A DNA stretch of 64,000 nt from Rhizobium terrae (GTDB taxonomy: Bacteria; Pseudomonadota; Alphaproteobacteria; Rhizobiales; Rhizobiaceae): the NCBI RefSeq assembly GCF_003425685.1, contig NZ_QJKM01000007.1, forward strand, positions 1 through 64,000, given 5' to 3'. This document shows positions 6,585-38,246 of the stretch, in pieces (the stretch's first letter is position 1; each line of letters begins with the position of its first letter). The position numbers and the translations under genes were made by a program. The notes below the pieces were generated by a model. It did no database searches, had not been told where the DNA came from, and worked only from the letters and a program-made list of their open reading frames with translations.

Positions 6585-8915
6585 ATGCGTCACTCTGCGC
6601 CGGCCATAGTCAGACAAACTCGCCTCGATGAACCCCGGCCGGGTTCATTGACCATCGGCTACGTGCCGAGCGAGCAGAACCCTCCCAAAGAAAACCCGCC
6701 TCGCTTCTCCTGGTTGCCCGATATCGACGACGGCGCGCGATACGTCCTGCGTATCTCGACCGATCCTGGTTTCGCCGATGACAAGACACGAACTTTTCCG
6801 GACCTCGCCTGGAATTTTTTCACGCCGGATGAAACGCTGCCGGAAGGCCGGTATCATTGGTCCTACGCGCTCTGGGACCAAGAAACCGCAGCGTGCAGTT
6901 CCAACTGGAGTGCCGTGCGCAGTTTCGAGATCCTCGAAACACTGCCGCAGACCCCGCTGCCCGGCCGGACCGCCCGGCATGCCGCCTCACAGACGAGCCA
7001 TCCGCGGCTGTGGCTCAATCCCGACCAGCTCAAATCATTCGCTGCAGCCGTTGCAAAGGATCCTGACCACTGCGGCTGGTCGGATTTCTTCGAGAAGTCC
7101 GTGAAACCCTGGCTTGAACGGCCGATCATGGAGGAGCCCAGGCCCTATCCCGACAATGTCCGTGTCGCGACACTCTGGCGGCAGATGTATATCGATTGCC
7201 AGGAAGTCATCTATGCGATCCGGCATCTTGCCATCGCTGGCCGTGTCCTTAGGCGCGACGATCTGCTGGATGCCTCCCGCGACTGGCTGCTCGCCGTTGC
7301 GGCATGGGACCCGAACGGGCCGACCTCGCGCGCCTATAATGATGAAGCGGCTTTCCGTGTCGTCGTCGCATTGGCTTGGGGGTATGACTGGCTCCATGAC
7401 CACTTGAGCGAAGAGCAGCGCGGCGCCGTGCGGTCCGTTCTTCTGCGCCGGACGCGCGAAGTGGCCGATCATGTCATCGCCCATGCGCGCATTCATGTAT
7501 TTCCTTACGACAGCCACGCCGTGCGTTCGCTTTCGGCGGTGTTGACGCCGGCCTGCATTGCGCTTTGCGGCGAAAGCGACGAGGCGGTCGAATGGCTCGA
7601 CTATACCGTCGAATTCCTGGCCACTCTCTACTCCCCCTGGGCGGGAACGGATGGCGGATGGGCCGAAGGTCCCCACTACTGGATGACCGGCATGGCCTAT
7701 CTCGTGGAGGCGGCCAACCTCATCCGGTCCTATATCGGCTTCGATCTCTATCGGCGGCCGTTTTTCCAGAATACCGGCAGGTTTCCCCTCTACACCAAGG
7801 CGCCCGGAACCCGGCGTGCCGGTTTTGGCGATGATTCGACCATGGGCGATCTGCCGGGCCTGAAGGTGGGCCATAACGTGCGTCAATTCGCCGGCGTCAC
7901 CGGCAACGGCCACTATCAGTGGTATTTCGATCGTATCAAGGCGGATGCGGCCGGCACGGAGGCCGCCTTCTACAATTACGGTTGGTGGGACCTGAATTTC
8001 GACGACCTGGTCTATCGCCACGATTATCGCGAAGTGGCTGCGACCTCGCCTGCCGATCTTCCCGCACTTGCCGTCTTCCATGATATCGGCTGGGCGGCAA
8101 TCCAGAAACATATGAACGATCCCGACCGGCACCTGCAGTTCGTCTTCAAATCGAGTCCTTACGGGTCTTTGAGCCACAGCCATGGCGATCAGAACGCGTT
8201 CGTCCTGTATGCCTATGGCGAAGATCTCGCGATCCAGTCAGGCTATTACATCGCCTTCAATTCCAGCATGCACCTTCACTGGCGGCGTCAGACCCGGTCG
8301 AAGAACGCGGTGCTGATTGGCGGCAAGGGCCAATATGCGGAGAAGGACAAGGCGCTTGCCCGTCGCGCTGCCGGCCGCATCGTGAATGTCGAGGAAAAAC
8401 CGGGTCATGTGCGTATGGTCGGCGATGCGACGGCTGCCTATCAGGTCGCCAACCCGCTGGTTCAAAAGGCCGAGCGCGAAATCCACTTCGTCAATGACAG
8501 CTATTTCGTGATCGTCGACCACGTCGAATGCTCCGAACCCCAGGATCTGCAGTGGCTTTGCCATATGACGGGGGCGCCGCAGACTGGCCGCTCGGGTTTT
8601 CGCTACAACGGCCGTAAGGCCGGTTTTTACGGCCAGTTCGTGTTCTCCTCCGCCGGCACGCCGCACATCACAGCCGTCGAAGGCTTCCCGGGGATCGATC
8701 CGACGGAATTCGAAGGGCTCGATATGCATCATCATGTCTGTGCCACGATACCGCCGGCAACGAGCCACCGCCTTGTGACCCTTCTCGTTCCCTACAGCCT
8801 CAAGGAACCGAAGCGCATCTTCAGCTTCACCGACGATCAGGGCTTCTCCACCGACATCTATTTCACCGATGTCGATGACCAGCGTTTCAAGCTTTCCATT
8901 CCCAAGCAATTCTAG
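6585..8915 (+). CDS. exo-type alginate lyase, PL15 (Atu3025 type)
   Basis: Polysaccharide lyase of 776 residues that cleaves alginate chains or oligosaccharides by beta-elimination, giving unsaturated monosaccharide (DEH). Length and residue numbering coincide with the characterised Agrobacterium enzyme Atu3025: His311 (PYDSHAVRS) and Tyr365 (EGPHYWM) are the catalytic pair and His531 (SLSHSHGDQN) is also conserved. The order is an N-terminal beta domain (to about 120), an alpha/alpha barrel (about 140-400) and a heparinase II/III-like beta domain. No signal peptide is visible, so it probably acts on imported oligosaccharides in the cytoplasm. It lies 75 bases after the binding protein. Confidence 0.93.
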   Translation: MRHSAPAIVRQTRLDEPRPGSLTIGYVPSEQNPPKENPPRFSWLPDIDDGARYVLRISTDPGFADDKTRTFPDLAWNFFTPDETLPEGRYHWSYALWDQETAACSSNWSAVRSFEILETLPQTPLPGRTARHAASQTSHPRLWLNPDQLKSFAAAVAKDPDHCGWSDFFEKSVKPWLERPIMEEPRPYPDNVRVATLWRQMYIDCQEVIYAIRHLAIAGRVLRRDDLLDASRDWLLAVAAWDPNGPTSRAYNDEAAFRVVVALAWGYDWLHDHLSEEQRGAVRSVLLRRTREVADHVIAHARIHVFPYDSHAVRSLSAVLTPACIALCGESDEAVEWLDYTVEFLATLYSPWAGTDGGWAEGPHYWMTGMAYLVEAANLIRSYIGFDLYRRPFFQNTGRFPLYTKAPGTRRAGFGDDSTMGDLPGLKVGHNVRQFAGVTGNGHYQWYFDRIKADAAGTEAAFYNYGWWDLNFDDLVYRHDYREVAATSPADLPALAVFHDIGWAAIQKHMNDPDRHLQFVFKSSPYGSLSHSHGDQNAFVLYAYGEDLAIQSGYYIAFNSSMHLHWRRQTRSKNAVLIGGKGQYAEKDKALARRAAGRIVNVEEKPGHVRMVGDATAAYQVANPLVQKAEREIHFVNDSYFVIVDHVECSEPQDLQWLCHMTGAPQTGRSGFRYNGRKAGFYGQFVFSSAGTPHITAVEGFPGIDPTEFEGLDMHHHVCATIPPATSHRLVTLLVPYSLKEPKRIFSFTDDQGFSTDIYFTDVDDQRFKLSIPKQF

Positions 8916-8933
8916 TGCATGTGAGGTTTCCAA

Positions 8934-9683
8934 ATGCAGCGTTTCACCAACAAGACTGTCATCGTGGCCGGTGCCGGGCGGGATATCGGGCGTGCCTGCG
9001 CCATTCGTTTCGCCGAGGAGGGCGCCAATGTCGTCCTCACCTATAACGGCGCCGCGGACGGGGCGGCCATGGCGGTTGCCGAGATCGAGAAGCTCGGTCG
9101 TTCGGCAGTCGCAATCAAGGCCGATCTGACCGATGGGGCCGAGGCCGAAGCGGCGATTGCCGTTGCCGCCGAAAGGTTCGGCATCATCCATGGCCTTGTC
9201 CATGTCGCCGGCGGCATGGTCGCCCGCAAGACGATGGCGGAAATGGACGAAACCTTCTGGCACCAGGTCCTTGACGTGAACCTGACCTCGCTGTTCCTGA
9301 CGGCAAAGGCCGTCCTTCCGAGGATGGCAAAGGGTGGCGCGATCGTGACCTTCTCCTCCCAGGCGGGCCGCGACGGCGGCGGGCCGGGCGCCATCGCCTA
9401 TGCCACGTCGAAAGGCGCGGTCATGACGTTCACCCGCGGTCTTGCAAAGGAAGTCGGCCCCGATATCCGTGTCAATGCGGTCTGCCCCGGCATGATTGCA
9501 ACGACCTTTCACGATACCTTCACCAAGCCCGAAGTTCGCGAGCGGGTGGCCGGCGCTGCATTGATGAAGCGGGAAGGAGCAAGCGAGGACGTCGCTGCGC
9601 TGGTGGCCTTCCTCGCCTCGGACGATGCCGCCTATATCACCGGTGCCTGCTATGACATCAACGGCGGCGTCCTGTTCTCGTGA
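8934..9683 (+). CDS. SDR oxidoreductase, probable DEH reductase
   Basis: Short-chain dehydrogenase of 249 residues. It has a Rossmann glycine motif near residues 12-19 (VAGAGRDIG), an NAG-type HVAGG near 90-94, and the catalytic set Ser141/142, Tyr156, Lys160 (YATSK). Its position directly after the alginate lyase suggests NAD(P)H-dependent reduction of 4-deoxy-L-erythro-5-hexoseulose uronate (DEH) to 2-keto-3-deoxygluconate, as SDRs do in known alginate pathways. Family certain, substrate inferred. Confidence 0.85.
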
Positions 9684-11900: not shown

Positions 11901-12694
11901 ACGAGTTCGAATATTGCTTCTCCACGCTCGGCTGCTCGGAATTGAGCTTGCACGAGGTCGCCGATCTCGCGGAACGACACGGCATCGAGGCCGTGGAACT
12001 GCGTGCGCTGTCCGCAACGCTCGATCTGCCGACGGCACTTGCTGCGGAGTTCGGGGAGCCTTCCGGCTTGGCGACTTTCCTGTCCCGTCAAAAGGTAAGG
12101 GTCGCTGCACTCAACACGTCCATCCGTCTGTTCGAGGCGGCCGATCTGTCCGGGATCGAGCCGTTCATTTCCTGGGCCGAGGCGGCCGGCGCCGGATATC
12201 TTCGTGTCTTCGATGGCGGCAACAGATTGAGCGAAGCCGATCTGGAGCAAGCTGCAGACATGCTGGATGCCTGGCAGGCGATGCGGCGTTCGCGACGCCT
12301 GAATGTCGACCTGATGATCGAGACCCACGACGCGCTGGCGGATTTTGATCAGCTCGTTGCATTCGTTGAACGGGTGCCGACGGCGCGGATCTTGTGGGAT
12401 ACCCATCATACATGGGCGAGAGGGACCGACATCGAAGCCCTCTGGCGACGCATCGCAGGAAACGTCGTTCATCTGCACGTCAAGGATAGTGCGCCTGATG
12501 GCAGTGGGCGCCGACGTTATGTGCTGCCGGGGCAGGGTGATTTCCCGATAGCAAGGCTGGTCTCGCTTCTCCGGTCGAACGCGTGCCGCCTCCCAATCAG
12601 CCTGGAATGGGAACGCCACTGGCATCCTGAATTGCCGCCTCTGGAAGATGCATTGAGGGCGGCGCGCACATGGTGGCGACAAGGAGTTCTCTGA
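11897..12694 (+). CDS. sugar phosphate isomerase/epimerase (TIM barrel)
   Basis: A 265-residue xylose-isomerase-like TIM-barrel protein. The metal ligands of the family can be seen in order: Glu in MIETHD, Asp/His in LWDTHHTW, His in VVHLHVKD and Glu in ISLEWE near the C-terminus. These enzymes isomerise or epimerise small sugars, and some act on inosose or keto-acid substrates. It is coupled to the dehydrogenase upstream (ATGA overlap) and to the dehydratase downstream (TGATG). Confidence 0.85.
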   Translation: MNEFEYCFSTLGCSELSLHEVADLAERHGIEAVELRALSATLDLPTALAAEFGEPSGLATFLSRQKVRVAALNTSIRLFEAADLSGIEPFISWAEAAGAGYLRVFDGGNRLSEADLEQAADMLDAWQAMRRSRRLNVDLMIETHDALADFDQLVAFVERVPTARILWDTHHTWARGTDIEALWRRIAGNVVHLHVKDSAPDGSGRRRYVLPGQGDFPIARLVSLLRSNACRLPISLEWERHWHPELPPLEDALRAARTWWRQGVL

Positions 12695-13941
12695 TGCGCA
12701 TAGCCGAAGTCCACCTCACGCCCGTCGCGATTCCCGACAAACCCTTGCTGAATTGCAAGGGCGTCCACCAGCCCTATGCATTGCGCACCGTCATCGAGGT
12801 CATTTGTGATGACGGGACGGTCGGATTGGGCGAAAGCTACGGAAGCATCAAGGCGCTGGAGGGCTTGCGGCGCGCGGCGCCCGCCTTGATCGGGCTCGAC
12901 CCGTTCCATCTTCACGAGCTGAAATTGCGCGTCATGACGGCGCTGCCCGAAGGCGGCGGCATCAACGCGAAGTCCGCCGTGGCCGATCACAAGCTGACGG
13001 ATGTGGTAACCTCCGCCTTCGAGGTTCCCTGCCTTGACATCCAGGGGAAGCTGCTCGGCCGCCCGGTGGTCGATCTGCTCGGCGGGCCGGTCCGCGGCAG
13101 CATCTCCTTCAGTGCCTATCTTTTCTACAAATTCGGGGCCCATATCGGCCAGACACAGGACGAGTGGGGCGAGGTGCTCACTCCCGACCAGATGGTTGCC
13201 GAAGCACGGACCATGGTCGAGACCCACGGATTCCGCTCGCTCAAGCTCAAGGGCGGCGTGCTGCATCCCGATCTTGAGATCGAGACGATGTTGAAGCTGC
13301 GGGAGGCCTTTCCCGATCACCCGCTGCGGATCGATCCCAATGGCGGCTGGACCGTCGAAACGGCGATTCATATTGCCCGCAAGCTGGAGAATGTCCTCGA
13401 ATATCTGGAGGATCCGGTGATCGGCATGGATCAGATGGCGGAAGTCGCTGCCGCCACCTCGATCCCGCTTGCCACCAACATGATCGTGCTGGAATTCGAC
13501 CAGATCGCCGAAGCCTTCCGAAAGAAGGCGGTGCGGATCGTGCTCTCCGACCACCATTACTGGGGTGGCCTGCGGGCTTCCACGCATCTCGGCAAGATAT
13601 GCGAGGCCTTGGGGCTTGGCGTCTCCATGCATTCGAATTCGCATCTCGGCATCACGCTTGCGGCCATGCTTCACGTGGCGGCGGCGACGCCGAACCTGGG
13701 TTACGACTGTGACACGCATTATCCCTGGACCGGTGTCGATGTGATCGAAGGTACGCCGTTCATTTTCCGCAACGGCGCCTTGGCGGTGCCGGATGGGCCG
13801 GGTCTCGGTGTTACCCTCGATCGCCGGAGGCTTGCCGAATTGGCGGGCTTCTACGAGCAGGCGGGTGTGAAGGAGCGTGACGACACCGCTTACATGAGGC
13901 GGTTTGATCCGGGCTACGAGCGACGAGTGCCCCGGTGGTAG
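12694..13941 (+). CDS. glucarate-dehydratase-like enolase-superfamily protein
   Basis: A 415-residue acid-sugar dehydratase of the mandelate racemase/glucarate dehydratase branch. The catalytic KxK is in LKLKGG, metal ligands are in RIDPNGG and EDPV, then ATNMIV, the DHHYWGG strand and the C-terminal general base His in MHSNSHLG. The start is the ATG at 12694, with AAGGAG nine bases upstream; an earlier in-frame ATG at 12670 is inside the previous gene. It probably dehydrates an aldarate such as glucarate, but the exact acid sugar cannot be read from the sequence. Last gene of the uronide operon. Confidence 0.88.
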   Translation: MRIAEVHLTPVAIPDKPLLNCKGVHQPYALRTVIEVICDDGTVGLGESYGSIKALEGLRRAAPALIGLDPFHLHELKLRVMTALPEGGGINAKSAVADHKLTDVVTSAFEVPCLDIQGKLLGRPVVDLLGGPVRGSISFSAYLFYKFGAHIGQTQDEWGEVLTPDQMVAEARTMVETHGFRSLKLKGGVLHPDLEIETMLKLREAFPDHPLRIDPNGGWTVETAIHIARKLENVLEYLEDPVIGMDQMAEVAAATSIPLATNMIVLEFDQIAEAFRKKAVRIVLSDHHYWGGLRASTHLGKICEALGLGVSMHSNSHLGITLAAMLHVAAATPNLGYDCDTHYPWTGVDVIEGTPFIFRNGALAVPDGPGLGVTLDRRRLAELAGFYEQAGVKERDDTAYMRRFDPGYERRVPRW

Positions 13942-14045
13942 TCTGTGCCGCACCATTCCAGATCCGAAACCCCGGACGGTTTGCGCTGCCAAATGGTGCT
14001 GCTTTCATAGCGCACTTATGGAGAACTGAATCCTGAGAACGGAAC

Positions 14046-14076
14046 GAAGGGCGCAACCTCGCGCTGCGCCCCTTTG
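14046..14076. terminator. possible terminator between convergent genes
   Basis: An imperfect hairpin (AAGGGCGCA paired with TGCGCCCCTT, one bulged base) lies in the 240-base gap between the convergent uronide operon and the MFS gene. A short CCCTTTG follows on the plus strand. Nothing else was seen in this gap. Confidence 0.4.
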
Positions 14077-14183
14077 CTTCAGGCTCGCCGCGCGCCGTCG
14101 ATGATTGCGCCGCCATCGGGCGTGAGGCTGCAACCCTTGCTGAATTGAGAATTCTTGCCAAGCTCCGGCGTGTGTCTTGCATA

Positions 14184-15323
14184 TCACCCGGCCTTGCGCT
14201 GAGGTATCGAAATACACCATAGGAGCAGTATCAGCGGCGCCGAAGAGCGCGCGATTTCGAAGCTCTGCGAGCTCCAATCGAACTGATAAAGATAAAAAGC
14301 GCCGCCCAGCCGCGCCGCAAGGATATCGAGGCAGGAGATCAGTCCGAATTTCGAGGAATCGACAAAGGAAAATGCAAGGGCGGTCGAGGGGATGTTCGCC
14401 ATCGCCATGGCAATGCCCACCGTAAACATTATGCCGAAAGCCCCCGCGGCCGAGTTGGACGGAAGCTGGACAAAAACGACAAGTCCGCAGCCGGCCAGGA
14501 TCGCGGCGAAGACGAGGCATCGGGGAAAGTGAACACTGTCGACCTTGCGCATCGCAAAGGATAACGCAGTGAACGCGATCCACGGAGAGGCTCCCAGAAG
14601 CGCCATTTGGGTATCGGAATACCCTTCACGGATCGCCCTGAGAGGGACGGCGTACATGAGCCAGGTCAGTTGGCCGTAAACGATGAATACGATGCCGAGG
14701 ACTGACAGCAACCCTACCAACGAGTTTCCGCTCGAAGCAACAGCCTGCGGAGAGGCTTGCGCACCGGAGGCGGTGGCGGGGGCGGTCGCGATCAGGGAAA
14801 ATGCCAGGACCGACAGTCCCAGGATCAAGGCCACCGAACTGCGAAGAGCGGAAAACTGGGCCACAATGATCAGGAACAACGGCGCGATCACGCAAACCGC
14901 ACCTGTGGTGGTCGCCCAATAGGAAAGATATCTGGTCTTGTCTTTGAACGTAACGGAGATGATGGAAGGAATAAGGGGCGAAAAAACGCCAGCTCCCAAA
15001 CCCATGAGAACCCTGGCGAAGAGCAGGCCGTGGAAGGCGTTCAACGTCACCAGCAGGACCGCGCCGAGGGAAAACATCACCAGCCCCGCGCGAAACAGCG
15101 CCAGCAGAACGCGGGGATTCTTGGCGAAGTAGGAGGGGATGATTCCTGCCACGAGGGCAATGTTGTAGGCGTATGCCAGAAGAACGCTGTTTTCCGAATT
15201 GAGCTCGAAATTCTTCGAAAGGCTCGCGAGGACGATCGGGAAAATCGATATGTCTGCCGTGTAGGATGACGCGGCCGATAGGACCGATAGGAAAAGCCTT
15301 CGGTTCGGTTCCGCTTCAGTCAT
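14184..15323 (-). CDS. MFS transporter
   Basis: Inner-membrane protein of 379 residues from the ATG at 15323, with about 11-12 hydrophobic segments. The MFS-type loop after helix 2 is abbreviated, and FARVLMGLGAGVFSPLIPSII resembles the helix 4-5 region of drug/H+ antiporters. An in-frame ATG at 15473 would add 50 hydrophilic residues and overlap the upstream gene deeply, so it is rejected. It overlaps the DUF6065-like gene by eight bases, which ties it to the repeat-peptide locus; export of a peptide or its product is a plausible job (inference). Confidence 0.82.
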   Translation of the reverse strand: MTEAEPNRRLFLSVLSAASSYTADISIFPIVLASLSKNFELNSENSVLLAYAYNIALVAGIIPSYFAKNPRVLLALFRAGLVMFSLGAVLLVTLNAFHGLLFARVLMGLGAGVFSPLIPSIISVTFKDKTRYLSYWATTTGAVCVIAPLFLIIVAQFSALRSSVALILGLSVLAFSLIATAPATASGAQASPQAVASSGNSLVGLLSVLGIVFIVYGQLTWLMYAVPLRAIREGYSDTQMALLGASPWIAFTALSFAMRKVDSVHFPRCLVFAAILAGCGLVVFVQLPSNSAAGAFGIMFTVGIAMAMANIPSTALAFSFVDSSKFGLISCLDILAARLGGAFYLYQFDWSSQSFEIARSSAPLILLLWCISIPQRKAG

Positions 15324-16083
15324 TCTTTCTGGTCTTCCGTGATCGCCGTGCGTAGCTGCCTTTTTCCCTCTTCGGGCCGACGCGATCCACGATCGTGCGT
15401 TTGTACGCGGTCCAATCGTCCTCCTGGAAAGCATCGAGGGATTCGACGAATTCGAAATCCCTGACGCCCCCAAGGGTCAAGAAACGAACATCCACGGGGT
15501 AAATCTGCAATATCGGCTCGTTCCGGTGGAATATGACTTCCGTGTCGGTCTTCAGAATCTTGATATTGGTGAAGAGCGGGCCGAACCACTCGTCCGTCTC
15601 GATGATACCTTCATATGTAAAGGTGTGGTGGTTCTGCTGATAGTTTATGGGAGGGCGGACATAGGCGAAAATGCCGGGCGTGGTCTTCAGGACCAGTCCG
15701 CTCCATAGCTGAAATGAACCTGGCTCCGGCACCGAGGAGATGAACGGCGGAGAATATCCCTGCACGTCCGCCGGGGCGGAGGCGTTGAACTGGTCCTTGA
15801 ACTTTGGAAACTGCAGGGTGTCCGCCTGGATCCAGTCGTCGATCCCGGCGCATTTGAAGAAGATCACCTTGCCGTCCCACATGACGCGGAAGTCGAGAGG
15901 CGGAAAAACATACCACCCCAGCTGAGAGGCAAGCCTTACAGGTTCGCAATATCTGTATGCGCGCACGGGCAAGGTGCCGGATGCGGATGAATCTGCAGGA
16001 ATCGGCCTCACCGCCGAGGGAACCATGCGCAGAAAAGTAACACCCACGTCAGTGCCTGACTTGGCTACGTCTGAGCTGCGCAT
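15316..16083 (-). CDS. DUF6065-like protein of unknown function
   Basis: A 255-residue soluble protein without signal peptide or membrane segment. The pattern YCEPVRLASQLGWYVFPPL followed by FRVMWDGK resembles the N-terminal signature I associate with DUF6065 (a GW then WDG arrangement), and NQQNHH/YEGIIETD lies mid-protein. The C-terminus is very basic (KREKGSYARRSRKTRKND). No known catalytic motif was recognised. It sits 15 bases downstream of the repeat-peptide gene and overlaps the transporter, so the three are almost certainly one transcript. It could be a maturation enzyme for the peptide; this is a guess from context. Confidence 0.65.
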   Translation of the reverse strand: MRSSDVAKSGTDVGVTFLRMVPSAVRPIPADSSASGTLPVRAYRYCEPVRLASQLGWYVFPPLDFRVMWDGKVIFFKCAGIDDWIQADTLQFPKFKDQFNASAPADVQGYSPPFISSVPEPGSFQLWSGLVLKTTPGIFAYVRPPINYQQNHHTFTYEGIIETDEWFGPLFTNIKILKTDTEVIFHRNEPILQIYPVDVRFLTLGGVRDFEFVESLDAFQEDDWTAYKRTIVDRVGPKREKGSYARRSRKTRKND

Positions 16084-16098
16084 GGCTGGATTGTCCCG

Positions 16099-16350
16099 TT
16101 AGGCTGCTTCGTCCATCGAAATAACGTCGAACGCCGGGCTCTTGTTCGCGATATGGACCCTGCCGTCATCGATAAAATCGGCAATGTCGAAAGCAGGGCT
16201 CTTGTTGGCAATATGCACTTTACCATCGTCGACAAAATCGCCGATGTCGAACGCCGGGCTCTTATTGGCAATGTGCACATTGCCGGCATCAGCGAAATCG
16301 GTATTTGTGAATGCTACGCGCACGTTGGCGAGAGAAGCGTCATGTTTCAT
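16099..16350 (-). CDS. 83-residue tandem-repeat peptide, candidate multi-core precursor
   Basis: Small gene starting at the ATG at 16350 behind AGGTGG. After about 24 residues of degenerate leader-like sequence (MKHDASLANVRVAFTNTDFA) come three copies of a 20-residue unit built on VHIANKSPAFD, joined by DFVDDGK or DFIDDGR spacers. The last copy ends DVISMDEAA. At DNA level the period is exactly 60 bases, and copies differ mostly at synonymous positions, so the peptide sequence is under selection. No cysteine in the repeats and no signal peptide. Multi-core precursors of ribosomally made peptides look like this, and the downstream gene order (unknown protein, exporter-like MFS) fits. Function unproven. 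Confidence 0.7.
   Translation of the reverse strand: MKHDASLANVRVAFTNTDFADAGNVHIANKSPAFDIGDFVDDGKVHIANKSPAFDIADFIDDGRVHIANKSPAFDVISMDEAA
16119..16320 (-). repeat. 60-base tandem repeat inside the peptide gene
   Basis: Three to three and a half copies of a 60-base unit, in register with the reading frame of the small peptide. The copy nearest the start codon is degenerate. Differences between copies fall largely on third codon positions. Confidence 0.85.
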
Positions 16351-16391
16351 ATCACCACCTATGGTTAAAGCGGCGGGAATGCCGCAGGCAT

Positions 16392-16419
16392 CAGCTAGGG
16401 CCGGACACGCGGTTGTCAA
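16392..16419 (-). promoter_or_regulatory. candidate promoter of the peptide/DUF6065/MFS operon
   Basis: On the minus strand TTGACA (16419-16414) is followed at 16 bases by TAGCTG (16397-16392). This resembles a sigma-70 promoter with a weak -10. It lies about 42 bases before the peptide start codon. Confidence 0.35.
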
Positions 16420-16474
16420 TGGGCGGTCGCCCGATTGGAAAATCTTGATGCCGATGATTACGTCGTCCAGCCTC

Positions 16475-16790
16475 CATTGGAAGGATGCGCCGAAGGATTG
16501 GGGGCCGCACAAGACGCTCTATAACCGGTTCATCCGCTGGAGCAGGCCAGGTGCTTCGATCGCATTTTTTGCGGCATTGGCCGGCAAAGGTCCGGTGCCG
16601 GCCGTATCATGATCGATACTACCCGTTCGAAAGCGCACCGGACGCAGCAAGATTGCTTGGAAAGGGAATGTTCCCCACGTCGTATCGGGCGACCCAAAGG
16701 TGGATTGAACTCCAAATTTCACGCCATGTGTGAGGGCAGGAGGCGCCCGATCATCACGCTGCTCGCGACAGACAAATGCGCCATCAATAA
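16475..16790 (+). mobile_element. remnant of an IS5-type (DDE) transposase gene
   Basis: Pieces of an IS5-family transposase are spread over three frames on the plus strand. They are WKDAPKDWGPHKTLYNRFIR with WSR (from 16475), then AARLLGKGMFP, then MIDTTRSKAHRTQQD and RPKGGLNSKFHAM followed by RRRPIITLL (to about 16790). Normally these are contiguous, so at least two frameshifts have destroyed the gene, and both ends are missing. Terminal inverted repeats were not found. It borders the repeat-peptide locus and supports its acquisition by transfer. Nothing else was recognised in the 495-base gap 16351-16845. Confidence 0.72.
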
Positions 16791-16845
16791 GACCGGCATC
16801 TCTCCGATCGCGGCTGCCGCCAACGCCGGCGACAGTTCAAGCCAT

Positions 16846-17958
16846 TCATCTCAGCGATCTTCGGAAACCACCAAGCGAGAAACCGAAGAACACCGCGGCG
16901 ATCACCCCAAGCCACAGAAACTGCGGCCATACAACCGAAAAACCACCACCCCGGTAAAGTATACCCTGCGCCATCAGGATGAAATGCGTGTTCGGGGCCG
17001 CAAACATGATCGTCTGGATCACCTCCGGCATGCTTTCGCGCGGCGTCGTCGCGCCCGAAAGAATCTGCAGCGGCAGCAGGACCAGCATCAGCAGCAGGCC
17101 GAACTGCGGCATCGAACCGGCCACCGTGGCAAGCGCGATCCCCATCGCGGTCGTGGCAAGAAGATGCAGCACCGCGCCCGCCATGAAGAGCACCAGCGAT
17201 CCCTCGATCGGGACCTGGAGCAGGCCCTGCACCATGATCACCAGCGAAAACAGCGTGGCGCAGAAGACGACAAGGCCCATCGACCAGACCTTGGCGAGCA
17301 TGATCTCCGCCGGACTGACCGGCATGACCAGGAGATGTTCGATCGTGCCGTGCTCTCGCTCGCGGATCAAGGCGGTTCCGGTCAGGATGATCGACAGCAT
17401 CGTTACATTGTTGATGACGTTCATCACCGATGCGAACCACATCTGGTTGAGTTCCGGATTGAAGCGGGAACGGAGCGCGAGGTCCACGTCCGGGGTGTCG
17501 CCGGCCGTACTGGTCCGTGCGAAATCCGAGACCTCGGCGGTCACGATGCTCTGTACGTAGCCGGACCCGGAAAAGGCCTGGGTCATGCGGGTTGCATCGA
17601 CGTTGAGCTGTATGACGGGCGCTCCACCGGCAATCAGGTCGCTCTGGAAATTCGGCGGGATGTCGAGCGCGAAGGTGTCGACGCCCGCATCCATCCGGTC
17701 GTCCATATCTTTCGCCGTGATCATGACCGGCCGTTTGAAATAGGGTGCCAGGAAGGAATCGCCGATGCGCCGTGACAGCGGCGAGTTGTCCTCGTCGACG
17801 ATCGCGATCGGGGCGTTGTTGAGCGTCTCCGGAACCGCCTTTGCCTCCGTATAGACGGCAATGGTGAAGGCATAGATGATGAAGCCGATGAGGGCCGGGT
17901 CGCGCATCAGGCCGCGCAGTTCCTTGATCCCGAGGTGAAGGATGGTGCCGGGTCTCAT
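16846..17958 (-). CDS. ABC-2 type permease, YhhJ-like
   Basis: Inner-membrane exporter permease of 370 residues. One N-terminal segment (about 20-45) is followed by a large periplasmic domain with the AIVDEDNSPLSRRI motif, then five C-terminal segments (about 175-365) with the REREHGTIEHLLVMPV coupling motif typical of ABC-2 permeases. It starts two bases after the RbbA-like gene stop and completes a HlyD/ATPase-permease/permease exporter. Substrate unknown. Confidence 0.9.
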   Translation of the reverse strand: MRPGTILHLGIKELRGLMRDPALIGFIIYAFTIAVYTEAKAVPETLNNAPIAIVDEDNSPLSRRIGDSFLAPYFKRPVMITAKDMDDRMDAGVDTFALDIPPNFQSDLIAGGAPVIQLNVDATRMTQAFSGSGYVQSIVTAEVSDFARTSTAGDTPDVDLALRSRFNPELNQMWFASVMNVINNVTMLSIILTGTALIREREHGTIEHLLVMPVSPAEIMLAKVWSMGLVVFCATLFSLVIMVQGLLQVPIEGSLVLFMAGAVLHLLATTAMGIALATVAGSMPQFGLLLMLVLLPLQILSGATTPRESMPEVIQTIMFAAPNTHFILMAQGILYRGGGFSVVWPQFLWLGVIAAVFFGFSLGGFRRSLR

Positions 17959-17960
17959 GG

Positions 17961-20702
17961 TCAGCCTGCCTGCTTCTTGAGGAAGACGGCCGCGGCCGCG
18001 ATGAGCAGCGGCGCAGCGGCCACCAGCGGCAGAAACGCGCTGCCGAGGTCTTCGAGGGAAAGTCCTTTCGAAAACGTGCCGCGCGAGATGATGTTGAAAT
18101 AGGTCGTTGGATAGATCTCCCCGATCAGGGCGCCGAAACCCTGCAGCGAGGAGACGGGATCGATCATGCCCGAGAACTGGACGGCGGGAATGATGGTCAT
18201 CAGCGTCGTGCCGAAGATCGCCGCGATCTGGCTCGACAGGAAACTGGAGACCAGCAGGCCGAAGGCGGTCGAGAACGCCACGTAGAGGACGGCGGCCAAT
18301 GCGAATGCGGAGAGGCTGCCGGTGAAGGGGACCTGGAAGACAAAGACGGCAAACAGCCAGAGCAGCACGGCATTTGCGATGCCGAGCGCCAGGTAGGGGG
18401 CCTGTTTGCCGAGGAGGAATTCGAGCCTCGTGACCGGCGTCACGTAGAAGTTGACGATGGAGCCGAGCTCCTTTTCCCGAACCACCGAAAGGGCGGCCAG
18501 CATGGCCGGGATCAGCAATAGAAGCAGAGGGATGACCGCCGGCACCATGGCGACGAGGCTTTCTATTCCCGGATTGTAGCGAAAGCGCGTTTCGATGGAG
18601 AAGGAACCCGCGGCGGCATCTCCGTAGATCTCGCGGGCATGCCGGGCAATCCAGCCTGCATGCATGCCCTGGACATAACCGCGGATGGTTTCCGCCCGCT
18701 GCGGCATGGCGCCGTCGATCCAGGCGCCGATCTCCACATCGCTGCCGCGCGCGACGCGTTCGGCAAAGCCCGGCGGGATCTCGATCGCGAGCTTCAACGA
18801 GCCGTCGCGCATGCGGTTGTCGAGATCGTCATAGTTCCGAAGCGGCGGCTGTTCGATGAAATAGCGGGATCCGGCGATGTCGGCGACATAGTCGCGGCTG
18901 GTCACCGTATCGTCGCGGTCGAGGACGGCAAAACTCAGGTTCTGCACGTCCATGTTGATGCCGTAACCGACGACGAACATCAGGATGACGCTGCCGATCA
19001 GGGCAAGCGTGGCGCGGATCGGATCGCGGCGCAACTCCAGCGCCTCCCGGCGACTGTAGCTCCAGAGGCGGCGCGGATCGAAGTTGCGCCGGTGCCTGCG
19101 GCTCGCAGGAACGGTCGGCATGGCCGGCTCGTCCTGTTGCCCGGGCGAGGGTGCCGGTTCGCGGATTGCGCCCTCGAGATAACCGATGAACGCTTCTTCC
19201 AGCGTCGCGGCCCGTCGCCCGTCGCGGATTGCGGCCGGCGTATCGCTCACCAGAACCCGGCCCGCATGCATCAGCGAAATGCGGTCGCAACGTTCCGACT
19301 CGTTCATGAAATGGGTGGAGATGAAGATCGTCACTCTGTCCTTGCGGGAGAGCTCGACCAGCATCTCCCAGAGCTGGTCCCTGGCGACGGGATCGACGCC
19401 GGAGGTCGGTTCGTCGAGGATCAGAACCTCGGGAGAATGGACGAGGGCCACGGCGAGCGAAAGCCGCTGGCGGACACCGAGCGGCAGGGCGTCGGGCAGC
19501 CAGTCCATGACGTCGAGAAGCCGGAAACGCCGGCCCATCTCCTCGATCCGGGCCGGAATGGCGTCCGGCGGCAGCCGGAACAGCCGGGCATGCAGGTCGA
19601 GGTTCTGCCGGACCGTGAGCTCCGTGTAGAGGGAGAAGGCCTGCGACATGTAGCCGACGCGCCTTCGGACATCCATGTCGCGCGGATCGACCTGCCTGCC
19701 GAACAGCCTGGCGGTGCCGCCGCTTGCCGGCAGAAGCCCCGTCAGCATCTTCATCGTCGTGGTCTTGCCGCAGCCGTTGGAGCCGAGGAAGCCGAAAATT
19801 TCTCCGCGGCGTATGCGGAAACTCACATTGTCCACGGCCGTGAAATCGCCGAAGCGCATGGTGAGGCCGTCCGCCTCGATGGCAAAATCCGAATCGTCGA
19901 AGACGGGTGGGGGGAGCCGAACGGCGTGATGTGCCGCCCGCTTTTCTGCCGGCATGAGCGCGATGAAGGCATCGTCCAGCGTCGAAGCGCCCGTTTTCGC
20001 CAGGATCTCGTCCGGCGAGCCGGTGGCGAGTATCTTTCCGGCATCCATGGCGGCCAGCCAGTCGAAACGCGCCGCTTCCTCCATATAGGCGGTGGCGACC
20101 ATGACGCTGAGCTGCGGTCGTTCGGCGCGGATATCGTCGATGAGGTTCCAGAATTGCCGGCGCGACAGCGGATCGACCCCCGTGGTGGGTTCGTCGAGGA
20201 TCAGAAGGTTCGGGTCGTGGAGAAGAGCGCAGCAGAGGCCGAGCTTCTGCTTCATCCCGCCGGACAGCTTGCCGGCCGGCCGATCCTCAAAACCGGCGAG
20301 CCCCGTCCGCTTCAGGAGCGAGCGAATGCGGGCCTGCCTTTCGTCGCTCCGCTGTCCGAAGAGGCTTCCGAAGAAATCGGCGTTCTCGAACACCGAAAGC
20401 GTCGGATAGAGATTGCGGCCGAGCCCCTGCGGCATGTAGGCGATCGCCGGGCAGACGCGGCTGCGGTGTCCGCTGCCGCGCATGTCGCCGCCGAGCACCT
20501 GAACCTCGCCTTTCTGGATGGAGCGCGCGCCGGCGACCAGCGAAAGAAGGGTCGATTTGCCGACGCCGTCCGGACCGATGAGCCCGACCATCCGGCCTTC
20601 GGGAATGTCCAGCGACACGTCGTCGAGTGCGATCCTCTTGCCATAGGAATGGACCAGGCTTTTCAATCGCGCCACATGGGTCGTCTCCGCCGCATCGGCC
20701 AT
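17961..20702 (-). CDS. RbbA-like fused double ABC ATPase and ABC-2 permease
   Basis: A 913-residue fusion matching RbbA/YhiH in architecture. The first ABC domain (about 10-240) has an atypical Walker [10 protein letters not shown], and LSGGMKQ. The second (about 275-500) has Walker [10 protein letters not shown], while its signature region reads [12 protein letters not shown] instead of LSGGQ, which may make one site catalytically weak. An ABC-2 permease domain (about 545-913) carries the [16 protein letters not shown] motif. The exporter operon runs HlyD, this protein, YhhJ. Despite the RbbA name, this context points to efflux rather than a ribosome role. Confidence 0.9.
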
Positions 20703-37323: not shown

Positions 37324-38246
37324 TGATGGTCGAACGGCATGTCTGGCTTTCCGTCTTCTGCCATGTGGTTCTGCTGGTCGGCGCCGCCGCGGTCTGCATG
37401 CCGCTCTATTTCGCCTTCGTCGCTGGTTCGCTGACGGTTGAAGACGTGCAGCAGGTGCCGTTCCCGCTCCTGCCGCGCGATCATTTCGTGCAAAATATCG
37501 TCACCGCGTGGAACGAGGGGGATTTCGGCCAGCTCTACATCAACTCGATCATCGTTACGGTGGGCATCGTGGTCGGCAAGCTGGTCGTGTCCATCATCGC
37601 CGGCTTTGCGGTCACCTATTTCCGCTTCCCCTTCCGCATGACGGCCTTCTGGCTGATCTTCATCTCGCTGATGCTGCCGGTCGAGGTGCGCATCATTCCG
37701 ACTTATGAGGCCGTGGCCGATGCCGGCGGTCCGCTCCGCTCCTTCTTCGAAGCGATCGGCCTGACGGGCTTGCTTGCGAACACCACCGGTTATCGGCTGG
37801 ACGCCGCGCTGCAATGGAACATGGTCAATACTTACAGCGGGCTGATCCTGCCGCTGATCGCTTCGGCCTCAGCGACCTTCCTGTTCCGCCAGTTCTTCCT
37901 GACGATCCCGGACGAGCTCTGCGAAGCCGCCAAGCTCGATGGTGCCGGTCCGATGAAATTCTTCTGGGACGTGCTGCTGCCGCTGTCGCGGGCGAATATC
38001 GCCGCCCTCTCGATCATCCTCTTCCTCTATGGCTGGAATCAGTATCTCTGGCCGCTGCTCTTCACCACCGAGAAGGGCATGTATACCGCGATGATCGGGC
38101 TCAAGGACCTGATTCCGGTGGCCGACGCCCGGCCGGCATGGAACATCGCCATGGCCGCCGCCTTCTTCGTCATGGCGCCGCCTGCAATCGTCATTCTCCT
38201 GATGCAACGCTGGTTCACCAAGGGCCTGGTGGATTCCAGCAAATAA
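37323..38246 (+). CDS. UgpE-like ABC permease
   Basis: Second permease, 307 residues (305 if the adjacent ATG at 37326 is used). It has six membrane segments and the coupling loop CEAAKLDGAGPMKFFWDVLLPLSRA, followed by LFLYGWNQYLWPLLFTT as in UgpE. Start overlaps the previous stop by one base. No ATPase gene follows within this operon. Confidence 0.9.
   Translation: MMVERHVWLSVFCHVVLLVGAAAVCMPLYFAFVAGSLTVEDVQQVPFPLLPRDHFVQNIVTAWNEGDFGQLYINSIIVTVGIVVGKLVVSIIAGFAVTYFRFPFRMTAFWLIFISLMLPVEVRIIPTYEAVADAGGPLRSFFEAIGLTGLLANTTGYRLDAALQWNMVNTYSGLILPLIASASATFLFRQFFLTIPDELCEAAKLDGAGPMKFFWDVLLPLSRANIAALSIILFLYGWNQYLWPLLFTTEKGMYTAMIGLKDLIPVADARPAWNIAMAAAFFVMAPPAIVILLMQRWFTKGLVDSSK

Follow-up and report, generated by a model that had tools for sequence, protein, structure and literature searches.

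What does a bacterium make from a short gene that encodes nearly the same 20 residues three times over, next to genes for a DUF6065 protein and a transporter? The question is raised by the window, i.e., the whole stretch of 64,000 nt (64 kb) of Rhizobium terrae DNA analysed here, in which a preliminary description had read three packed minus-strand genes as a candidate new peptide system with the layout of a multi-core RiPP pathway. Our comparisons support the view that this locus belongs to a peptide-making or peptide-signalling system undescribed in the literature that we searched. The recurrent pairing of peptide and DUF6065 speaks for the proposed new system, whereas its postulated leader, a general exporter, and covalent modification are not supported.

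The three-gene locus and its repeat peptide

The features of the locus are the following:

16099..16350, minus strand: repeat peptide of 83 aa with three 20-residue units and no evident leader
15316..16083, minus strand: DUF6065 protein of 255 aa with a predicted dUTPase fold, the repeat peptide's partner (Pfam, structure model, Foldseek)
14184..15323, minus strand: MFS transporter of 379 aa, candidate exporter in the window's clade only
16355..16360, minus strand: ribosome-binding-site-like AGGTGG, 4 nt 5' of the peptide ATG and identical in loci L056 and L057
16279..16323, minus strand: probable degenerate N-terminal unit VRVAFTNTDFADAGN, so read from a motif count
16219..16278, minus strand: unit 1, VHIANKSPAFDIGDFVDDGK
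16159..16218, minus strand: unit 2, VHIANKSPAFDIADFIDDGR
16102..16158, minus strand: unit 3, VHIANKSPAFDVISMDEAA, C-terminal
14252..16385, minus strand: DNA similarity (72%) to plasmid cassettes of strains WSM4643 and SRDI969, with flanks that lack a match

The genes are arranged as first described, with a 15-nt gap between the peptide and DUF6065 genes and an 8-nt overlap (ATGACTGA) between the DUF6065 and MFS genes, and Pfam bears out both protein assignments. The DUF6065 product scores 47.9 bits against PF19541, above the gathering score of 26.6 (three relatives score 48.9 to 50.7 bits), and the MFS product matches MFS_1 at 3e-13 with 49.9 bits against a cut-off of 33.4. NCBIfam contained no family that fits the DUF6065 protein and gave no match at cut-off for the peptide. 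As initially noted, no known RiPP-modifying enzyme class was found among the three window genes with Pfam and NCBIfam; neither was a dedicated protease found in the operon, nor a sigma-70-like site in a promoter scan at the locus. An identity as anti-phage defence genes was dropped after PADLOC profiles had given no match at E 0.01 to any of the three products (P0001, P0002, and P0003).

The 83-residue peptide indeed contains three exact, in-frame VHIANKSPAFD cores spaced by 20 residues, and Tandem Repeats Finder reports the array in its gene (period 60, 2.8 copies, score 211) as the stronger of only two in 64 kb. The second lies at 38144-38194 (period 21, 2.4 copies). Counterparts in two other Rhizobium records are 84% identical to the window peptide, and 32 synonymous and 13 non-synonymous codon differences among 83 separate it from its orthologue in L056 (NG86 dN 0.098, dS 2.14, with dS saturated). 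Among the window's own units, comparison of the 33-nt core gives 5 synonymous and 0 non-synonymous codon changes for the pair 2-3 and likewise for the pair 1-3, and comparison of units 1 and 2 over their entire 60 nt gives 8 synonymous and 3 non-synonymous ones. This identity and synonymous excess argue that the peptide ORF is not a product of chance, and a synonymous bias both between orthologues and between the window's own units is unlike the expectation for a non-coding repeat. As judged from these codon comparisons, the peptide is under purifying selection.

The N-terminus, originally taken to be leader-like, seems instead to hold a degenerate unit, VRVAFTNTDFADAG, given that a motif count finds one VRVA besides the three VHIA in the window peptide. 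In Reyranella (L077), the first unit begins at residue 2, and no common leader or shared N-terminus was seen when the peptides were compared by eye rather than by a formal leader search; on these two grounds, the leader hypothesis was rejected. The locus displays one mark of a RiPP, an encoded precursor under selection that adjoins a partner gene, while a leader or follower apart from the core was not seen in the by-eye comparison.

With a GC content of 0.564 against a mean of 0.622, the operon is a low-GC cassette of 2.1 kb, and 0 of 124 same-size sliding windows across the 64 kb are lower. The same three genes are found on plasmids of Rhizobium sp. WSM4643 and SRDI969 at a different site, where they adjoin a tartrate-dehydrogenase gene group and not the window's neighbour genes; the 72% similarity and its limits were taken from a comparison of window positions 12501-18500. 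To judge from these placements, the three-gene cassette is mobile and moves between sites. When 57 genomes of the genus were searched with P0002, the window's DUF6065 protein, a strong match was obtained in its own genome alone, with weak matches in two others. In one congener, the DUF6065 match (G016:C1:1458765-1459469; L003, L011, L012) lies in three pieces and different frames. The MFS gene of the WSM4643 cassette (L056:8762-9903) is split in two frames, and the MFS frame of SRDI969 is open. The Rhizobium plasmid records annotate these peptides as hypothetical proteins.

Pairing of peptide and DUF6065 across genomes and phages

A class-wide search of 385 genomes recovered four further strong members (41-45% identity), each with a repeat peptide directly upstream, as well as nine weaker matches that were grouped with the other or weak DUF6065 loci discussed below. 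A scan of genome contigs with P0002 alone gave no match, and in a phylum sample query A3 found its own genome alone among 398 at E 1e-10. A profile scan of the genome collection, from which the best 80 of 238 relatives were used, and a viral-contig scan contributing 12 more gave 92 loci; in five of these the contig breaks off within 80 nt, leaving 87 that are readable upstream. By a count that rests on unit strings read by eye and hence on an identification that was not blind, 81 of the 87 carry a same-strand peptide at most 1300 nt upstream of DUF6065 (73/79 genome loci and 8/8 viral loci). Some of the loci are closely related to one another, and L044 and L094 represent a single contig as judged by its length, so that loci are not independent events. 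The proposal to look for small repeat ORFs beside DUF6065 homologues in Rhizobiaceae proved fruitful well beyond that family.

A mechanical control set comprised 97 loci (the window and four others having been added) less five, i.e., 92 with at least 150 nt upstream. The strict motif D-x-G-x-[IV]-[RKQH]-[LIVFM]-G was present in 49 of the 92 upstream regions as opposed to 0/92 on the opposite strand, 0/90 downstream, 0/62 further upstream, and 0/460 shuffles; for a looser two-copy pattern, 56/92 upstream regions compare with 0/92, 4/90, 4/62, and 3/460 in the same controls. The window's own unit, with A in place of G, fails the strict motif. Two later hits came from a family-wide sample of 394 genomes, one (L208) with a peptide of four units that belong to a new type (VRLGTGHRR) and one (L209) without a peptide. 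Just upstream of the divergent DUF6065 gene of L209 lies a small ORF that ends in AITAGGKTMFVNAGALRR, is devoid of the unit motif, and may be another type of peptide.

No recognisable upstream peptide was found in six of the 87 readable loci (L098, L112, L118, L124, L128, and L133). Tree relatives of L098 and L118 keep arrays, which makes loss possible there; L128 is not in the tree. We further scanned a set of 22 loci whose matches to DUF6065 are of another kind or weak. Several are weak, and some may not represent DUF6065, L052 and L053 being embedded in far longer frames. No unit motif was found on the gene's strand within 1.5 kb; a single match on the opposite strand at L018 was deemed chance. 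A free repeat search that covered ten of these 22 loci met other low-complexity repeats. These subfamilies, located on rhizobial chromosomes and a Sinorhizobium medicae plasmid, share PF19541 with the paired one but differ from it in that none of the 22 loci scanned, some of them weak matches, has a nearby same-strand unit motif. Pairing as a feature of DUF6065 in general was therefore rejected, and the six absences together with this negative scan assign it to one DUF6065 subfamily. DUF6065 homologues without a nearby repeat gene, which the preliminary description had named as evidence against its own reading, thus exist in part, as six of 87 close relatives and the 22 other or weak loci. Directly downstream of other-subfamily DUF6065 genes, a long Ser/Asn-repeat protein is encoded in 7/7 rhizobial loci (L015-L021, ~8400-9180), possibly a different repeat-partner pairing.

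As far as the compared loci tell, the smallest common set is the peptide plus DUF6065. The MFS exporter that had been considered part of the layout holds for the window's clade, where a homologous MFS gene lies 3' of the pair in 8/8 VHIANKSPAF-clade loci, but not as a general partner: none of the genes at the remaining 90 of 98 loci clusters with it. Unrelated MFS-like genes may adjoin at L118 and L128, as seen by eye. Two further neighbours were rejected as partners, namely a TldD/PmbA protease homologue upstream in seven loci, which may be a housekeeping neighbour, and a PLP enzyme at Sneathiella-type loci that we read as synteny of close relatives.

In 38 of 98 loci, spread over several clades and in varying orientations, a homologue of a BTAD/TPR regulator lies close to the pair (at most 5 kb upstream in 20/60 and at most 5 kb downstream in 15/70). 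Among eight such regulators tested with Pfam at E 0.001, TPR was detected in seven and BTAD in six, some of the TPR matches being below the Pfam cut-off. These neighbours would suit a peptide signal, in which units, modified or not, are released, exported, and sensed by the nearby regulator in the manner of multi-copy pheromone precursors. We nevertheless consider this distinctly unlikely, given that neither the window nor any fetched locus of the GNMSPAF and VHIANKSPAF clades has a regulator of this kind and that such regulators may be common in the genomes concerned, since the control loci without one (0/22 have it) belong to other taxa. The 38 regulator loci fall between L064 and L135 (e.g., L093:4076-6106 and L070:5595-7736), and the gene is a candidate sensor or switch.

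The pair is also present on viral contigs and on one genome contig with phage genes (L089, L139, L141, L142, L144, L145, L148, and L150). At the first six of these, a peptide of one or two units is followed by a terminase homologue (Pfam was applied to L089 only), and the surroundings of the L150 pair are presumably T4-like. At L141:1039-1666, one DUF6065 gene has two distinct ORFs upstream of it, each with a single unit (GKIRLGGACRMP and GSIRVGDTYRLH). Phage records contained no match for the L150 copy and three weak ones for a copy from L041, to hypothetical proteins of Halorubrum viruses.

Unit anatomy and the predicted fold of DUF6065

A typical unit combines [IV]-x-[LIVFM]-G with a less conserved stretch behind it, and each upstream small ORF has at least one copy. 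In an alignment of one unit per locus (73 loci giving 66 distinct 12-mers), position 5 carries G in 61/66 and A in 5/66, position 2 carries V, I, M, or L, a basic residue (R, K, or H) occupies position 3 in 59/66, and position 9 is mostly P or R; constraint is strongest at positions 5, 2, and 3 and weakest at 12, 7, 8, and 10. The expectation of a conserved leader with variable repeats is thus borne out for the repeats, which have more and less conserved positions, and not for the leader. Examples of unit types can be given by taxon: VHIANKSPAF units occur in Rhizobium, Nereida, Sulfitobacter, and Pseudaestuariivita, VRLGNMSPAF units in Sneathiella, VKLGMMAPAF units in Reyranella and Vineibacter, VRLGGMSPAL and VRMGGFAPTL units in Rhodospirillales and Acetobacteraceae, VSTGGLQRA units in Roseomonas, and IKVGGGAINLVKP in Bradyrhizobium, while IRLGSVFRLP is a single-unit type.

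Among the 81 peptides, 62 are complete, and these have from one unit (15/62) to 11 units, so that one unit may suffice; the peptide of L091, cut by a contig end, has 19. Contig ends fall within 1 kb upstream of DUF6065 in 28/92 loci compared to 3/92 within 1 kb downstream (21/80 versus 3/80 for genome loci alone), an excess of the sort that repeat arrays would produce.

Unit type agrees with the phylogeny of DUF6065. In a tree of 78 proteins, 73 of them labelled with one of eight types that were assigned from the units (one type being a catch-all of 20), types change 10 times as compared to a mean of 45.8 after shuffling, and 0/200 shuffles were as low; VHIANKSPAF, GNMSPAF, GMMAPAF, and two small types each require a single change. 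Distance matrices of units and DUF6065 correlate at 0.54 for the unit and 0.36 for its variable part, with 0/2000 permutations as high. For pairs below 60% identity, r is 0.06, and this loss of correlation confines the agreement to the inside of clades, where common descent by itself would produce it as well. Slippage can create tandem DNA repeats, and the array could in principle be a non-functional one that happens to lie upstream of an unrelated gene. In our view, recurrence, motif controls, selection, and tree agreement together exclude such a coincidence.

An AlphaFold2 model of the DUF6065 protein (77 alignment rows; pLDDT 84.5, pTM 0.76) predicts a dUTPase fold: the 50 best PDB matches shown by Foldseek are all dUTPases (E 4.6e-5 to 9.8e-4, probability 1.00, 8-14% identity), and in a viral library the best matches are uncharacterised phage proteins with dUTPases below them. 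By sequence, the single PDB match reached E 0.55, and PHROG 7084, a family annotated as of unknown function, matched DUF6065 at E 0.002 for P0002 and 8.9e-9 for the L041 copy. A profile comparison of DUF6065 with 22 alphaproteobacterial dUTPases was not significant (probability 0.05%). We refer to sequence motifs by their dUTPase names. The conserved dUTPase columns are visible in the dUTPase alignment, and the non-significant profile alignment pairs R-P-x-A-N with RPRSG, GI[IV]ETDRWFG with GTIDADYRG, and a motif-4 Gln. On inspection, P0002 is devoid of GGFGSTG (motif 5), RxRSG, and the motif-2 Ser, and PF00692 is not among the Pfam matches of the window genes; DUF6065 thus lacks the full dUTPase set of PF00692 plus five motifs. 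It further differs from dUTPases in being accompanied by a unit peptide in 81/87 loci, and the predicted shared fold does not imply dUTPase activity. An enzyme that binds or hydrolyses nucleotides, with the peptide regulating it or supplying the missing C-terminal arm in trans, would agree with the predicted fold and with stretches matching motifs 2-4 in the same order; in view of the missing motif 5 and motif-2 Ser, the non-significant profile comparison behind that order, and an ordinary dUTPase encoded elsewhere in the host genome, we regard it as very unlikely.

In a one-chain model of peptide plus DUF6065, the peptide was predicted to be disordered (block-mean pLDDT 30-45) and gave no sign of docking. 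dUTPases are oligomers, and the units might be an unmodified multivalent ligand that docks onto DUF6065, itself perhaps an oligomer, and controls its assembly, place, or activity. Predicted disorder, repeat arrays with a conserved strand-like motif, and the occurrence of pairs among phage genes would all accord with such a ligand. A cross-linking scaffold could not tolerate single units, though, which are common among complete peptides, and the variation behind the G is unexpected in a plain docking motif; we therefore hold this reading to be unlikely, if still, together with the peptide signal, one of the two main competitors.

A proposed substrate-enzyme pair and its meaning

With a probability of roughly 0.45, we favour a two-part peptide system carried on a mobile cassette in which every unit is recognised and acted upon by DUF6065, most likely through modification of the stretch behind the G. 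The short gene would encode near-identical units strung together with no evident leader, and every unit would join a recognition strand complete in itself ([IV]-basic-[LIVF]-G; VHIA here) to a stretch that varies more. DUF6065 would bind each unit via the kept strand and most likely modify the variable stretch to form the product, after which the units would be set free and, within the window's clade, leave the cell through the MFS protein. We infer these steps of physical binding, modification, processing, and export from the features of the pair: one unit appears to be enough, the G strand is kept, the stretch behind it varies by clade, and unit type tracks the partner, which a substrate-enzyme pair explains best.

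Several results count against this substrate-enzyme explanation. The operon yielded no known RiPP enzyme, no leader, and no dedicated protease, the one-chain model shows no docking, the profile comparison with dUTPases is not significant, and the unit-partner correlation falls to r 0.06 below 60% identity. The same holds for the six of 87 loci and L209 that have DUF6065 but no recognisable peptide, for the split MFS gene of WSM4643, and for the pairs among phage genes, an odd place for a natural product. Tentatively, and with some doubt, the pair may represent a new class of ribosomal peptides with a dUTPase-fold modifying enzyme and leaderless tandem units, each with a recognition strand inside, whose variable stretch has diversified among proteobacteria (alpha; beta and gamma by MAG titles) and phages.

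Known peptide systems offer partial parallels. Graspetide precursors can have several core repeats, and as with other multi-core RiPPs, a short multi-core gene adjoins the gene for the protein that would act on it; their precursor groups correspond to branches of the ATP-grasp tree, much as unit types track the DUF6065 tree, at least in the portions of the graspetide study used here (PMC8939145). By the same portions, graspetide precursors have conserved residues in a leader region, whereas no ATP-grasp or other known RiPP enzyme was found and no conserved leader was seen at our loci (PMC8939145). CgnB and CgnE of the crocagin pathway are likewise non-classical peptide-binding proteins that act on a precursor from the same cluster, and an identity of this type for DUF6065 was dropped because they resemble aminopeptidases and not dUTPases, according to the part of the crocagin report consulted (PMC10070186). 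DUF6065, PF19541, and five unit strings were not mentioned in the literature searched, which was mostly open, with few subscription papers and bioRxiv only via PMC, and the work on multi-core precursors, RiPP mining, dUTPase-like proteins, and BTAD regulators within it yielded nothing on a DUF6065-peptide family.

The pairing provides a lead on the function of DUF6065, a DUF named in no paper of that literature, and the unit motif together with DUF6065 forms a sequence rule for listing and testing a family of variable peptides. Should DUF6065 modify the units, a fold of nucleotide hydrolases would have been turned into a peptide-modifying enzyme with its recognition element in each unit, i.e., a new enzyme class, and the repeat arrays would be ready for library making.
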